DNA of 64,000 nucleotides from Arthrobacter sp. SLBN-112 (GTDB taxonomy: Bacteria; Actinomycetota; Actinomycetes; Actinomycetales; Micrococcaceae). A program made the position numbers and the translations under genes. Every line of letters starts with the position of its first letter. Position 1 is the stretch's first letter. Where the stretch lies: contig NZ_JAUSXY010000001.1 in assembly GCF_030944625.1 (NCBI RefSeq), forward strand, positions 434,001 through 498,000, read 5' to 3'. A model generated the notes under the pieces. The model did no database searches, had not been told where the DNA came from, and worked only from the letters and a program-made list of their open reading frames with translations. Positions 14,238 through 25,714 of the stretch are shown in pieces.

Positions 14238-14380
14238 GGTGGTGCTCCTTGGTTTGTTTGTGTGGATCGATTGCTCCCTACCGGCTCCCAACCTTCGCAA
14301 GCTCAGGTCGGGGCCCTCGCCGGCAGGGGCTAACGTAGTTGTCGTTATGGGGTCCCCAACGGCATCTACGCAGGTGGGGC

Positions 14381-20030: not shown

Positions 20031-21062
20031 TCAACCTGCTTTCCGCTGTTTCAGCGCCGCCCCGGCCCACGCCGCCAGCAACAACGCCACCAGCACCAGG
20101 CCGGCATCGCCCAGGTCGATCGATCCGAGCCACCCCGTCACTGGGTCGTCAAGGGAGAACGCGGCATGCAGGAAACCGCCCAGCGTGATCACGGCAATGA
20201 ACAGGGCGGAAACCGCTGAGATGCCCGTAACCAGTGCGTTGAAACCAAGCCTCCGCCGGGGGTGGTCCAACGCGGAGCGGTACATCCGCATCATGGCCAT
20301 GCCGTTCACCGAGTCGCACAGGGTCATCGCGGCAGCGAAGGCAAGTGGCAGCGCGAGCAACGCGAACGGCGGCACCCCGGCCAGGGAGGCCGCCGTCGTC
20401 ATCATCAGCAGCCCGATAGTGGTGGCGGTGTCAAAGCCCAAGCCGAACAGGAACCCGATCACGTAGATGTTCCGCGGCCGCCGCACCCTGGACAGCGGCC
20501 GGGCGAGCAGACGGGCCACCAGGCCCCGCGGCTCCAAGTCCCGGAGGTCGACGGCGGCACCGTTGCGGGCGCGCAGGTAGCCGCCGGCAGAACGTGCGAA
20601 GGCGGAGCCGTTGAACAGTCCCATGGCCAGCAGGAACAGGCCGGACACGCCGCTGCCGATCAGGCCCAGGACAAGATTGCCTGTTGAACCGTCCTGCATC
20701 AGTCCGCCCGCCAAGGACGCTCCGGCAATAACCAGTACCCCTGCGAGGGTCACCACCGAGCTGTGCCCCAGGCTGAACGCGAATCCCACGCTCACAGGGT
20801 CCTGCCGCTGCGCCGCGAACTTGCGGGTGGAGTTGTCGATGGCGGCGAGGTGGTCCCAGTCGTAACTGTGCTTCACGCCAGCCAGGTAGGCGGTGAGGAC
20901 CAGGCCCCAGGTCAGCGGCTGTCCACGGCCGTTGATGGTTCCGGCGAGCAGGAGGACGACGGCGGCGGCATGCAGGGCGGCCACCGCACCGAAAGTGAAC
21001 AGCACCCGGGTCCGCAGCGGCAGCGAGTCACGGCCCCGGTAGAGCGCGGCGATGCTGGTCAT
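20031..21062 (-). CDS. NiCoT-family nickel/cobalt transporter
   Basis: This 343-residue membrane protein with about eight helices is related to HoxN/NixA. The signature in helix 2 reads KHSYDWDHLAAIDN; the HX4DH core is kept, but two positions differ from the usual RHAxDADHI. FSLGHSSVV and GLGFDTATTIGLL match other family signatures. Its ATG shares one base with the ureD stop (TGATG), so it is the last gene of the urease operon and should supply nickel for urease maturation. It is predicted to be a secondary transporter in the cytoplasmic membrane. Confidence 0.85.
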   Translation of the reverse strand: MTSIAALYRGRDSLPLRTRVLFTFGAVAALHAAAVVLLLAGTINGRGQPLTWGLVLTAYLAGVKHSYDWDHLAAIDNSTRKFAAQRQDPVSVGFAFSLGHSSVVTLAGVLVIAGASLAGGLMQDGSTGNLVLGLIGSGVSGLFLLAMGLFNGSAFARSAGGYLRARNGAAVDLRDLEPRGLVARLLARPLSRVRRPRNIYVIGFLFGLGFDTATTIGLLMMTTAASLAGVPPFALLALPLAFAAAMTLCDSVNGMAMMRMYRSALDHPRRRLGFNALVTGISAVSALFIAVITLGGFLHAAFSLDDPVTGWLGSIDLGDAGLVLVALLLAAWAGAALKQRKAG

Positions 21063-22018
21063 CAGTGCTTCCTCAGGTCCAGCGGCCCTTGGCCGCTCCA
21101 GCGTCCGCGCAGCAGGTCGGTGCAGGATCGGAGCAGCCGGTTCAGTTCGTCCGTGCTGTTGGAAAGGCTCCGCAGCACCAGGCCGGCAGTCCCCGCAACA
21201 GGGCGGGTGAGCGAGATGCCGGTCAACGCTTCGCGGCCGGCGGTGAGCCCGTGCAGCTCGTCGGCGAGCACCTGGTCCACGCGCGCATCCACCACCACCA
21301 GCGACCCGACGTGGCTGTAGCCTTCCATGAAACCGAGTCCGGTGACGTCGTGCAGCGGCGGCCGGATCAGCAGGTTGTCCAGCGCCAGCAGGTGGCTACC
21401 GCCGTCCGTTTCGACGCGGATTTCGTTGCGCAGCCGCACTTCCTCATACCCGAAAGCGGAACCGTCCGGCGACCAGCCAGGAGTGACCACCTCAGCCATG
21501 ACCAGGGACGACGACGGCCGCAGCGTCACGGAGGTCCGTTGCCGGTAGCTGGCCTCCCGGTAGGCGATGAGCTGGTCCGGCATGAGTTCAAGCCGCGCCC
21601 CCTCCCCCAGCCGCACCCCCATCCGCTGCTCGGCAAAGGACCCGGGAGTCCGGTAAACCTTGGTAGCCGATTGGGTGGTCAAAAGCAGAGAAGCACCGTC
21701 ATGGACCTCAACATCAACAAGAAAGAGATCGGCCCCAAGATAAGCCCCGCCAGGGTTCACGACGACGTAGCAAACCTGCCCGGAGTCATCGAGATAGTGG
21801 GGACGGAGTACCCGAAGAGCCCCCTCATGGAACTGATGCGACGCAAACGAACGGCCACCTCGGGAACTGACGCCCAGCTCAAGCCGCCCCATAGGTGACG
21901 TATCCGCTGAGGCGGCGGAGCCGGATGTAAGGGGCCGCGTCGTGGTGGGCACCGCGAAGCGGGCACGGCCCCTTACATACGGTGAAGCCGCCGGTGGCGC
22001 TCCCGCCGTCGTACTCAT
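21062..22018 (-). CDS. ureD: Urease accessory protein UreD (UreH)
   Basis: This maturation factor binds apo-urease together with UreF and UreG for nickel insertion. Conserved UreD blocks are [49 protein letters not shown] and [16 protein letters not shown]. The ATG at 22018 overlaps the ureG stop (ATGA). However, the first 42 codons run through a hairpin repeat (21887-21993) and encode a non-conserved segment; an alternative ATG at 21892 begins exactly at the conserved GRLEL block but lacks a clear ribosome site. The 5' quarter after the repeat has unusual T-ending codons. The length with the upstream start is 318 residues. Confidence 0.9.
21887..21993. repeat. Hairpin repeat element, copy 1 (at the ureG/ureD junction)
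   Basis: This is one of two ~107-base elements. The core stem ATGTAAGGGGCCG (21925-21937) pairs perfectly with 21966-21978, closing a 28-base loop that itself contains CCGC-GAA-GCGG and GGTGGGCACC foldbacks. An outer GGCGGC/GCCGCC pair (21911-21916/21987-21992) extends it. The element starts with CCCCATAGG and ends with GAAGCCGCCG. The other copy is at 23332-23438. It may be a REP-like mobile palindrome or a structured RNA. Confidence 0.75.
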
Positions 22019-22632
22019 GAAGCCAGGTCGAGCATCAGGACGTCGTGGCGGATCCAGTCGATGACCTTGTCGAGGCCCTCGTCCGTTTTCAGGTTGGTGA
22101 AACAGAACGGCTTGTTGCCCCTGAACTCCTTGGAATCCCGCTCCATGACTGACAAATCTGCGCCGACGTGGGGTGCGAGGTCGGTTTTGTTGATGATGAA
22201 GAGGTCGGACTTGATCATGCCCTGGCCTGCTTTGCGGGGGATTTTTTCGCCCTGGGCCACGTCGATGATGTAGATGGAGAAGTCCACGAGTTCGGGGCTG
22301 AAGGTGGCGGAGAGGTTGTCGCCGCCGGATTCGACGAAGATCACCTGCAGGTCGGGGTGGCGGGTTTTGAGTTCCTCGATGGCGGCGGTGTTCATGGAGG
22401 TGTCTTCGCGGATGGCGGTGTGCGGGCAGCCGCCGGTTTCGACGCCGATGATCCGGTCCACGGGGAGGATGCCGTTGGCGGCTAGGATCTTGGCGTCCTC
22501 GATGGTGTAGATGTCGTTGGTGATGGCGGCCATGGAGATCTCGGCACTCATGTGCCGTGTGAGTCGCTCCACGAGCTGGGTTTTGCCGGCTCCCACGGGT
22601 CCGCCGATGCCGATTTTGATGGGTTCGCTCAT
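22015..22632 (-). CDS. ureG: Urease accessory GTPase UreG
   Basis: This 205-residue SIMIBI-class GTPase delivers nickel during urease activation. The P-loop is GGPVGAGKT (residues 10-18), the nickel-binding CPH motif is C69-P70-H71, and the guanine-specificity motif is NKTDLAPH. There is no His-rich N-terminal extension, so nickel storage must come from elsewhere. AGGAGG lies five bases before the ATG. It is followed by ureD with an ATGA overlap and preceded by ureF. Confidence 0.97.
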
Positions 22633-22657
22633 TTTTCCTCCTGAATCGAAAGCACAG

Positions 22658-23323
22658 CTAGCTCATGAACATCCGGGCACGCTGGCGTTCGTGCCGCATT
22701 TGTGAAATTTCCAGCCCGGGGCTGACGGCGCCGAAGTCGTCCGGCGTGAGGTGCGCGATGGTGTCGATGGCGGCAGCGACGTCGTCGTGCGCTTTCCGCA
22801 GCACCCGCTGCCCGGCGTTCTGGCCCAGCGGAATGGCCCGCACGGCGTTCTGTGTCAGGGAGGTGACGGTGGCGAAGAGGTAGGCGGCGAGCGCCTCCTG
22901 GGGCGGAACGCCCAGTGAGCGGGCGACGACGGCGAACGCGAGCGGCTGGTGCCCGGCGGCCCGGCCCGTGGTCACCAGGTCCCGATACAGTGCGAGCTCG
23001 GCCGACGGAAACACCTCAGCGCCGATTTCCAGCAACCGAAGCCCCATCTTGCAGCTCGCCTCACGAACCTGCCGCGGCAAAAGAGAAGCAGAAAGAAGAC
23101 CATCCAGCTCACCAACATCAGCCCCCTCATAAAGGAACCGAATGGCAAGCCCATCGGAATAAGTCAGCGACTGCGAGATGAACGCGGACAACCAAGCCCC
23201 AAAACCAGCCTCATCAGCGACAACACCGGCGTCGACATAGGTCTCAAACCCAAGCGAGTGCGCGAAGGCCCCAGTAGGAAGCGCAGAATCAGTGAGCTGC
23301 TGAAGAGCAAGCTGATAACTCAT
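22658..23323 (-). CDS. ureF: Urease accessory protein UreF
   Basis: This 221-residue all-helical protein activates UreG in the UreDFG-urease complex. Conserved parts are [18 protein letters not shown] at the N terminus, [23 protein letters not shown] and the C-terminal [13 protein letters not shown]. The ATG at 23323 has no strong ribosome site. The first ~95 codons are rich in T-ending codons (GCT, GAT, CTT, GTT), unlike the rest of the gene and its neighbours. A hairpin repeat lies 9 to 115 bases upstream of the start. Confidence 0.93.
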
Positions 23324-23331
23324 AACCGCGA

Positions 23332-23438
23332 CCCCAAGGCGACGTACGCGCCCAACTGGGCGGAGGCGGGTGATAGGGGCCGCGGCGTGGTGGGCACCGC
23401 GAAGCGGGCACGGCCCCTATCACCCGCCGAAGCCCCCG
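23332..23438. repeat. Hairpin repeat element, copy 2 (between ureE and ureF)
   Basis: GGCGGGTGATAGGGGCCG (23365-23382) pairs perfectly over 18 bases with 23411-23428. The 28-base loop (23383-23410) differs by one base from that of copy 1 at 21887-21993. The stem tips are GGGGCCG/CGGCCCC in both, but the outer stem sequences differ completely and are compensated. It begins CCCCAAGGCGACGTA and ends GAAGCCCCCG. It fills the intercistronic space between ureE and ureF. Confidence 0.8.
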
Positions 23439-23473
23439 CGCCGGCACCCACCGAAGGAGCCGAAGGCGCGGAG

Positions 23474-23953
23474 TCAGTGCGAGTGTTCAGCATGGCGGAA
23501 AGGCACAGGGAGCACGCGTTCCTGGCGGGTGTAGGGCACGGAGTTGTGGCGGAGGTAGTCCTCGACGGTGTGGTCGTAGGCGCACACCATGACCTCGGCC
23601 CCGTATTCGGAGGACGCGTCGAAGAACTGTGCCTGGAGGTGCCGGTTGCCCAGGGAGTGTGCGGTGACGCCCATTTCGGAGATGGTGCGGGGTGCGATGA
23701 CCAGGACGTCGGTGGGCAGGACTGACACCACGATCATGTTGGATTCCTCCACGTGGAGGATGTCGCCGTCGCGGAGGTCACCGGAGCCGGAGGGGAGGCG
23801 GATGCCGATTTCCTTGCCGTGGTCGGTGGTGGCGCGCTGGATGCGTTTGACCAGCTGGGCGCTGGGCAGGACCACTTTTTCCTGGTGCAGGCCGGCGTAC
23901 GCTTCGGGGTCCGGCAGCTCGTGCAGGTTGCCGAGGACTTTGTCGATGATCAC
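23474..23953 (-). CDS. ureE: Urease accessory metallochaperone UreE
   Basis: This nickel-carrying chaperone has 159 residues from GTG at 23953. GGAG lies about eight bases upstream of the GTG, and the protein begins [17 protein letters not shown]. The C-terminal metal-binding domain has [20 protein letters not shown], and the protein ends in the modest His tail FRHAEHSH. In the sequence as given the preceding ureC frame reads through into it without a stop because of a one-base shift near 24000; the restored ureC TAG is at 23971-23973, 17 bases before this start. The two are therefore normally separate genes. Confidence 0.88.
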
Positions 23954-23970
23954 GTGGTTTCTCCGGTGCT

Positions 23971-25710
<1,740 letters not shown>

Positions 25711-25714
<4 letters not shown>

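Follow-up and report, generated by a model that had tools for sequence, protein, structure and literature searches.

Hairpins with a conserved loop and variable, paired stems appear within urease reading frames of Arthrobacter

The urease operon of Arthrobacter sp. SLBN-112 carries two hairpins that share a loop but differ in their stems, and we report here that both appear to lie inside reading frames and that they probably represent a coding palindrome comparable to the RPE palindromes of Rickettsia, specified by its loop and with stems that would be exchanged or re-paired. The preliminary description of these hairpins was made from the letters of the window (the whole stretch of DNA analysed, 64,000 nucleotides); that the two copies are not simply intergenic but sit in open reading frames is a new observation with respect to that description. 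Were the frames used, the start of UreD would move to the ureG stop and a small ORF would be added between ureC and ureF. For an actinobacterial genus of which at least 206 species have been sequenced, such a family would allow direct tests of insert origin, pairing and protein effect; the material for them would be the sites described below that are filled in some genomes and empty at the orthologous place in others, together with the inverted copies and the chimeras with half-swapped stems.

In the accessible part of PMC10969869, the RPEs are given as palindromes of about 150 bp with 44 in-frame copies in unrelated genes of R. conorii, Rickettsia is named as the outstanding case of in-frame palindromic inserts, and MITEs (of the ERIC, RU and BOX types) are given as small inserts that may become joined to genomic ORFs in the same frame. 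For the mitochondria of Nematomorpha, the accessible part of PMC6649704 reports protein-coding genes that contain perfect inverted repeats, and the corresponding part of the RepRanger paper (PMC12306157) gives palindrome counts for one Arthrobacter genome with the families left unnamed. A search of the literature on Arthrobacter palindromic or REP repeats, with most subscription papers outside its scope, found no title describing the element.

Results

Anatomy of the two urease hairpins

The urease operon of the window is on the minus strand; hairpin 1 is placed where ureG meets ureD and hairpin 2 where ureC meets ureF, as follows.

21062-22018, minus strand: ureD, taken from the ATG overlapping the stop of ureG (ATGA); 318 aa, with hairpin 1 in the N-terminal extension
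21921-21982, plus strand: hairpin 1 (ureG|ureD); left arm 21921-21937, loop 21938-21965, right arm 21966-21982
22015-22632, minus strand: ureG, matching the CobW/HypB/UreG family
22658-23323, minus strand: ureF
23320-23493, minus strand: 57-codon ORF with hairpin 2, starting inside ureC and stopping in the ureF ATGA
23365-23428, plus strand: hairpin 2 (ureC|ureF); left arm 23365-23382, loop 23383-23410, right arm 23411-23428
23474-25714, minus strand: ureC (urease alpha), residues 607-661 of which match the UreE N-terminal domain

Both hairpins were found where the preliminary description had placed them, with loops of 28 nt that are one base apart and that are both antisense to the ure operon; the GGGGCCG/CGGCCCC tip is likewise common to the two, the single loop difference being placed inside this tip, and the outer stems differ in sequence as had been described. 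The further claim that each stem is perfectly paired holds for the stretches that had been named but not further out, since hairpin 1 has 13 perfect pairs, one G/A mismatch and then 3 further pairs, while hairpin 2 has 18 perfect pairs. The length of 107 nt with similar ends proved to be a chosen frame, and no sharp boundary common to both elements was found: the core hairpin is 62-64 nt, without a sharp outer boundary, and the hairpin-bearing urease gaps differ widely in length. The DNA folding z-scores of the two hairpins on the plus strand, against shuffles, are -4.35 and -3.48, and the expected count of the loop pattern in shuffled windows, with up to 3 mismatches allowed, is 0.00.

Reading frames across the hairpins

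Between ureG and ureD, every one of the 52 hairpin alleles and of the 31 hairpin-less alleles has an open UreD frame; the other two frames across the hairpin alleles are open in 12/52 and 24/52. The gap length is 2 mod 3 in 49 of the 52 hairpin alleles (25 of their 28 distinct lengths) and in 30 of the 31 hairpin-less alleles, counts which, like all the frame statistics given here, ignore shared ancestry. A start codon in the UreD frame overlaps the ureG stop in 73 of 83 genomes, the other 10 being without one, and the stretch that separates the ureG stop from the conserved core of UreD ranges from 23 to 257 nt across the 83. In the window, ureD has a second in-frame ATG after the hairpin (MGRLEL), and the Pfam UreD match begins at residue 85. 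Because a start codon of some kind also lies downstream of the hairpin in 50 of the 52 hairpin alleles, we infer, rather than read directly, that the upstream UreD start at the ureG stop is in use; in the other 2/52, the stretch from the hairpin to a point 10 codons inside the UreD core has no ATG, GTG or TTG in frame.

At the ureC|ureF junction, 21 of the 26 hairpin-less relatives have an ATG inside ureC in frame with ureF, and one more has an ACG there. In the hairpin genomes the same ureC-internal ATG opens an ORF of 47-87 codons that runs through the hairpin; the 57-codon ORF of the window gave no Pfam match. This ORF ends at the ureF start in 52/57 alleles, with an overlap of 4 nt in 45, of 1 nt in 5 and of 8 nt in 2, where, of the in-frame ureF starts, the one nearest the end of the ORF was used, a choice that favours small overlaps, and it is fused to ureF in the other 5/57. 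The gap is 0 mod 3 in 50/57 hairpin alleles and in 21/26 distinct lengths, again with shared ancestry ignored.

Outside the operon, the hairpin of FruA lies between EIIA and EIIB, with the ORF running across it: at approximately residues 230-257 in locus L093, between domains at 81-221 and 266-356, and at approximately residues 158-180 in locus L120, between domains at 6-147 and 192-282. In ArgD the hairpin precedes the aminotransferase domain and the ORF again runs across, and in the E2 acyltransferase it lies, likewise crossed by the ORF, at approximately residues 155-181, between the lipoyl (6-77) and E3-binding (200-235) domains. On the predicted frames, the placement in FruA, ArgD, E2 and urease is what one would see if linkers and extensions tolerated an insert. 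The predicted coding placement covers these four, and the grpE|dnaJ, glpK-side, thiolase, rho and infB|rbfA copies may or may not be coding.

We also considered a stop-free core as an adaptation to coding positions; this was not significant, all six frames being open in 450/500 shuffles of the short core and in 205/500 of the long core.

Loop sequence, length and orientation

The loop is near-invariant across sites (GGTGTGGTGGGCACCGCGAAGCGGGC type), and the stems differ yet pair. The conserved loop reads GTGGTGGGCACC-GCGAAGC-GGGC and contains a C-GNA-G mini-hairpin of its own, which is kept throughout, including in a variant that retains the pairs (CAGC-GAA-GCTG, locus L215); in single-stranded DNA, loops of the d(GNA) type show unusual stability. 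A long-loop version occurs in 29 of 109 urease hairpins, and the sequence that enlarges it is related to a solo repeat in the window:

14283-14318, minus strand: solo relative of the long-loop filler (GAGGGCCCCGACCTGAGCTTGCGAAGGTTGGGAGCC), with 3 mismatches, between two reading frames

The loop is antisense in 39 and sense, that is, inverted, in 13 of the 52 ureG|ureD hairpins. Both orientations are also found at argD, and at grpE|dnaJ two orientations occur at two different positions.

Distribution and sites

The genome of SLBN-112 (4.39 Mb) has three strong copies, the third lying in the grpE-dnaJ gap. With at most 1 mismatch, 141 of the 206 genomes available for the genus, here Arthrobacter taken broadly, have the loop pattern, at 1-4 copies each, and a reversed-pattern control gave zero in every genome. 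Exact core matches were found in 14 public stretches, all from Arthrobacter, Pseudarthrobacter or Paenarthrobacter. The preliminary description had proposed a covariance-model search, with restriction to two sites and invariant stems as the outcome to set against its reading; the search, as run here, found copies at several sites that are present or absent among relatives, and thus more than two sites, with stems that vary. The model detected the element in 33 of the 59 genomes searched, these 33 all being of the same genus (33/37 there), and, at the level of the family, in 18/158 genomes and in 7/32 genera including its own. A broader model built on 25 diverse copies matched in 36/41 genomes, with at most 4 copies per genome.

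Outside the urease operon, the loop is common to at least 9 other genomic positions in the family. The recurrent sites, read in 37 genomes of the genus, are ureC|ureF, ureG|ureD, grpE|dnaJ, the 3' side of glpK, the argD N-terminus (argB|argD) and the fruA linker, with grpE|dnaJ hosting hairpins at two positions and the glpK copies lying mostly before leuS; further sites in the genus are one after a thiolase gene and one unassigned place in locus L074, and those in other genera are the 3' side of rho, infB|rbfA and the inside of the E2 acyltransferase gene. This list rests on the annotated matches from the covariance-model search of 59 genomes and on the family loci, rather than on all 206 genomes; the gene families in it were confirmed at each site for one or two loci and otherwise read from the same flanking termini. 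Next to the third copy in the grpE-dnaJ gap of SLBN-112 there is a second, larger hairpin with another loop (CGGATAAGGGGGCCC...GGGCCCCCTTATCCG, locus L003, 1336-1430). Loci L213 and L215, from two genomes of other genera, each have a pair of such hairpins at a short distance and facing opposite ways; the places read as the grpE-dnaJ gap and the neighbourhood of rho.

In a set of 83 urease loci, hairpins are present at both junctions in 47 genomes, at one in 15 and at neither in 21, and are absent at 26/83 ureC|ureF and 31/83 ureG|ureD junctions; the set is not a random one, 23 loci coming from genomes with a model match and 60 having been chosen mostly by UreG similarity, with some picked by hand, and 8 loci, mostly duplicate contigs, were left out. 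Among plasmids, two records match, both from Arthrobacter sp. StoSoilB13, with at best 69% and 50% of the query covered, and the stretch inspected carries no annotation. The viral contigs gave no exact match to the loop pattern.

Even with the broad model, the number of copies per genome is low for a mobile repeat, and this low number, together with the recurrence of sites, counts against a busy mobile element; the same few sites across the genus fit old residents rather than fresh insertions. Of the earlier suggestion of a mobile palindrome, the several sites and the presence or absence of copies at them are borne out; transposition itself would be hypothetical, given the 1-4 copies where the element is present, the recurrent sites and the lack of a consistent target duplication. 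The two ends carry a direct repeat in 5/52 ureG|ureD and 0/57 ureC|ureF alleles (2/2600 in letter-shuffled ureG|ureD gaps).

Pairing and exchange of stems

True arm partners pair at 0.96/0.93 of the outer positions, against 0.71/0.66 for shuffled partners; the low pairing of the ureG|ureD hairpin in locus L063 is an artefact of how its left arm was parsed. On a quick ureFG tree of the 83 genomes, in which 29 of 80 inner branches have under 80% support, presence changes at least 13 times at ureC|ureF and at least 17 times at ureG|ureD (shuffled means 22.5 and 25.6), the ureG|ureD hairpin of locus L200, which was dropped from the arm counts as its left arm was unparsed, being scored as 'none' in the presence labels of this site (51 filled, 32 none, in place of 52 and 31). 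The left-arm type changes at least 34 times at ureC|ureF (shuffled mean 39.9, minimum 36) and at least 35 times at ureG|ureD (shuffled mean 36.9, minimum 34). Since the left-arm count at ureC|ureF is below all 100 shuffles, some tree signal remains at this site; stem type follows the gene tree weakly at ureC|ureF and not detectably at ureG|ureD. Loop length changes at least 10 and at least 11 times on the tree (shuffled 14.0 and 11.1), and orientation at ureG|ureD at least 9 times (shuffled 10.9). Arm type is shared by 8/40 (ureC|ureF) and 7/24 (ureG|ureD) of the pairs whose ureFG is at least 90% identical, and the same stem types reappear in distant clades of the tree.

Chimeric stems, in which the left arm is of one type and the right arm of another, were found in loci L163, L167, L174 and L190, and such half-swapped chimeras are the outcome expected of recombination inside the shared loop. 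In 22 pairs of near-identical stems there are 14 double changes, 9 one-sided changes with G-U and 3 broken pairs, a count that used only the 84 of 108 hairpins with at least 14/16 pairs, a selection that favours pairing. The covariation of stems on which the preliminary description relied is thus borne out in one respect, the loop being conserved with unrelated, paired stems over many sites and genomes, but the stem differences between genomes cannot be counted as independent compensatory mutations, since for the most part an entire stem has been replaced, at scattered points of the gene tree. Pairing is maintained, yet much of the variation between genomes is, as we read it, cassette exchange.

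Discussion

Comparison with known systems and a proposed mechanism

Among RPEs, too, orthologous sites can be filled or empty, and that family is defined by similar sequence along the element, stem included. As far as the RPEs are described in the accessible part of the source cited above, the hairpins studied here are like them in being palindromes inside the ORFs of unrelated genes that remain open in frame (UreD 52/52; ureF ORF 57/57) and unlike them in copy number, with 3 copies in their own genome and 0-4 in others against the 44 of R. conorii. They are also unlike RPEs in that only the loop is conserved while the stems are free, in having two loop lengths, in belonging to another phylum and in occupying gaps too. 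Because the copy number is not that of the RPEs and the stem is free, we do not file the element among them and say only that it works like one. MITEs, within the accessible account of them, resemble it as small inserts in frame with ORFs, but the hairpins lack constant terminal inverted repeats, their stems differing by site, and show no consistent target duplication. The inverted repeats of Nematomorpha likewise lie within coding genes, but these are mitochondrial and the accessible part of their description makes no mention of a shared loop.

We propose that the hairpins are a small palindromic element of Arthrobacter and of some other genera of the family, which would be placed where extra sequence is tolerated: in the N-terminal extensions of UreD and ArgD, products of overlapping operon genes, in a small ORF derived from the 5' end of ureF, in the linkers between domains of FruA and E2, and in short gaps. 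The features kept would be the loop and the pairing of its flanks, with the sequence of the stem largely free. The element would have entered the frames as an insert and would have been retained since the reading frame stayed usable. Its stems may then change largely by recombination that swaps whole hairpin cassettes between strains and sites, broken stems then being either selected away or restored by template switching, in which one arm serves as the template for its partner, and the loop may be conserved as the signal for a putative activity that spreads or exchanges the element.

Alternative explanations

A stricter version of this proposal, which we think unlikely, would make the loop the whole of the specification: the fixed information would be a loop of approximately 25 nt with C-GNA-G, and a putative enzyme acting on the hairpin, by a dedicated recombination or copying activity, would build or rebuild the stems using the flanking DNA, so that the palindrome would enter coding sequences anywhere, a fixed stem being unneeded. 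Another case, to which we give a rather small chance, is that of a structural by-product, in which quasi-palindromes are perfected by template-switch correction without selection or mobility and the loop is spread by gene conversion. Near-perfect arms of very different sequence, the double base-pair changes and the fact that the chimeras are mostly paired are all in keeping with this, but by itself it leaves unexplained the conservation of the loop at the level of nucleotides, across the genus and in some genomes of six other genera and despite different frames, as well as the arrival of the loop at unrelated sites. A cis-regulatory RNA hairpin in the operon mRNA, acting by differential stability, attenuation or a loop-binding protein on urease, glycerol kinase, arginine, fructose and chaperone genes, seems to us improbable: metabolic operons do recur as hosts, the loop is nearly invariant and the stems are kept base by base in places (among hairpins preselected as paired), but the loop is found in both orientations at ureG|ureD and argD, the long-loop version stands in place of the short one in over a quarter of the urease hairpins and many junctions have no hairpin at all. 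The two orientations, at grpE|dnaJ as well, count against a strand-specific form of the functional RNA that had been suggested earlier. Rfam searches at gathering and relaxed thresholds likewise gave nothing above threshold over the hairpins of the window and of nine related loci, with only weak miRNA matches below it, in agreement with the earlier remark that no named family fits.

Intrinsic terminators or Rho-related stops with a shared loop would account for strong G+C-rich stems, some of which are at gene 3' ends (glpK, rho), but the urease copies are inside open frames, among co-directional and partly overlapping genes, and, with both strands considered, 1 of 108 urease hairpins has a TTTT run no more than 12 nt away from its 16-bp stem, so that this is a very improbable reading. 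A terminator scan of 21500-24000 gave four weak matches, none at the hairpins, with a scan restricted to loops of 3-8 that could not find hairpins of this kind. It is scarcely probable at all that the element is of the REP type and moved by a RAYT or Y1 (HUH) transposase: it has in common with REP and REP-RAYT systems a short hairpin repeat between, adjoining or in genes and a short conserved signal, but differs in its low copy number, its coding positions and its variable stems, and Y1_Tnp (PF01797), the one enzyme family covered by the search, was absent from 60/61 genomes of the genus, including that of SLBN-112, while the same search was positive in 5/14 controls.

Other features of the urease region

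From its UreE N-terminal domain match, the UreC of the window looks to be fused to UreE. Opposite the urease alpha gene there is an Rfam match to 5_ureB_sRNA (103.5 bits, 25270-25556, plus strand), which may owe its score to conservation of the coding sequence and not to an antisense RNA. The urease junctions of loci L152, L177, L061, L182 and L187 also contain a different repeat (GGTTTCGACAGGCTCAACCACCGG type), whose translation in the first three of these, within the UreD extension or the small ORF, gives peptides resembling VVEPVET.
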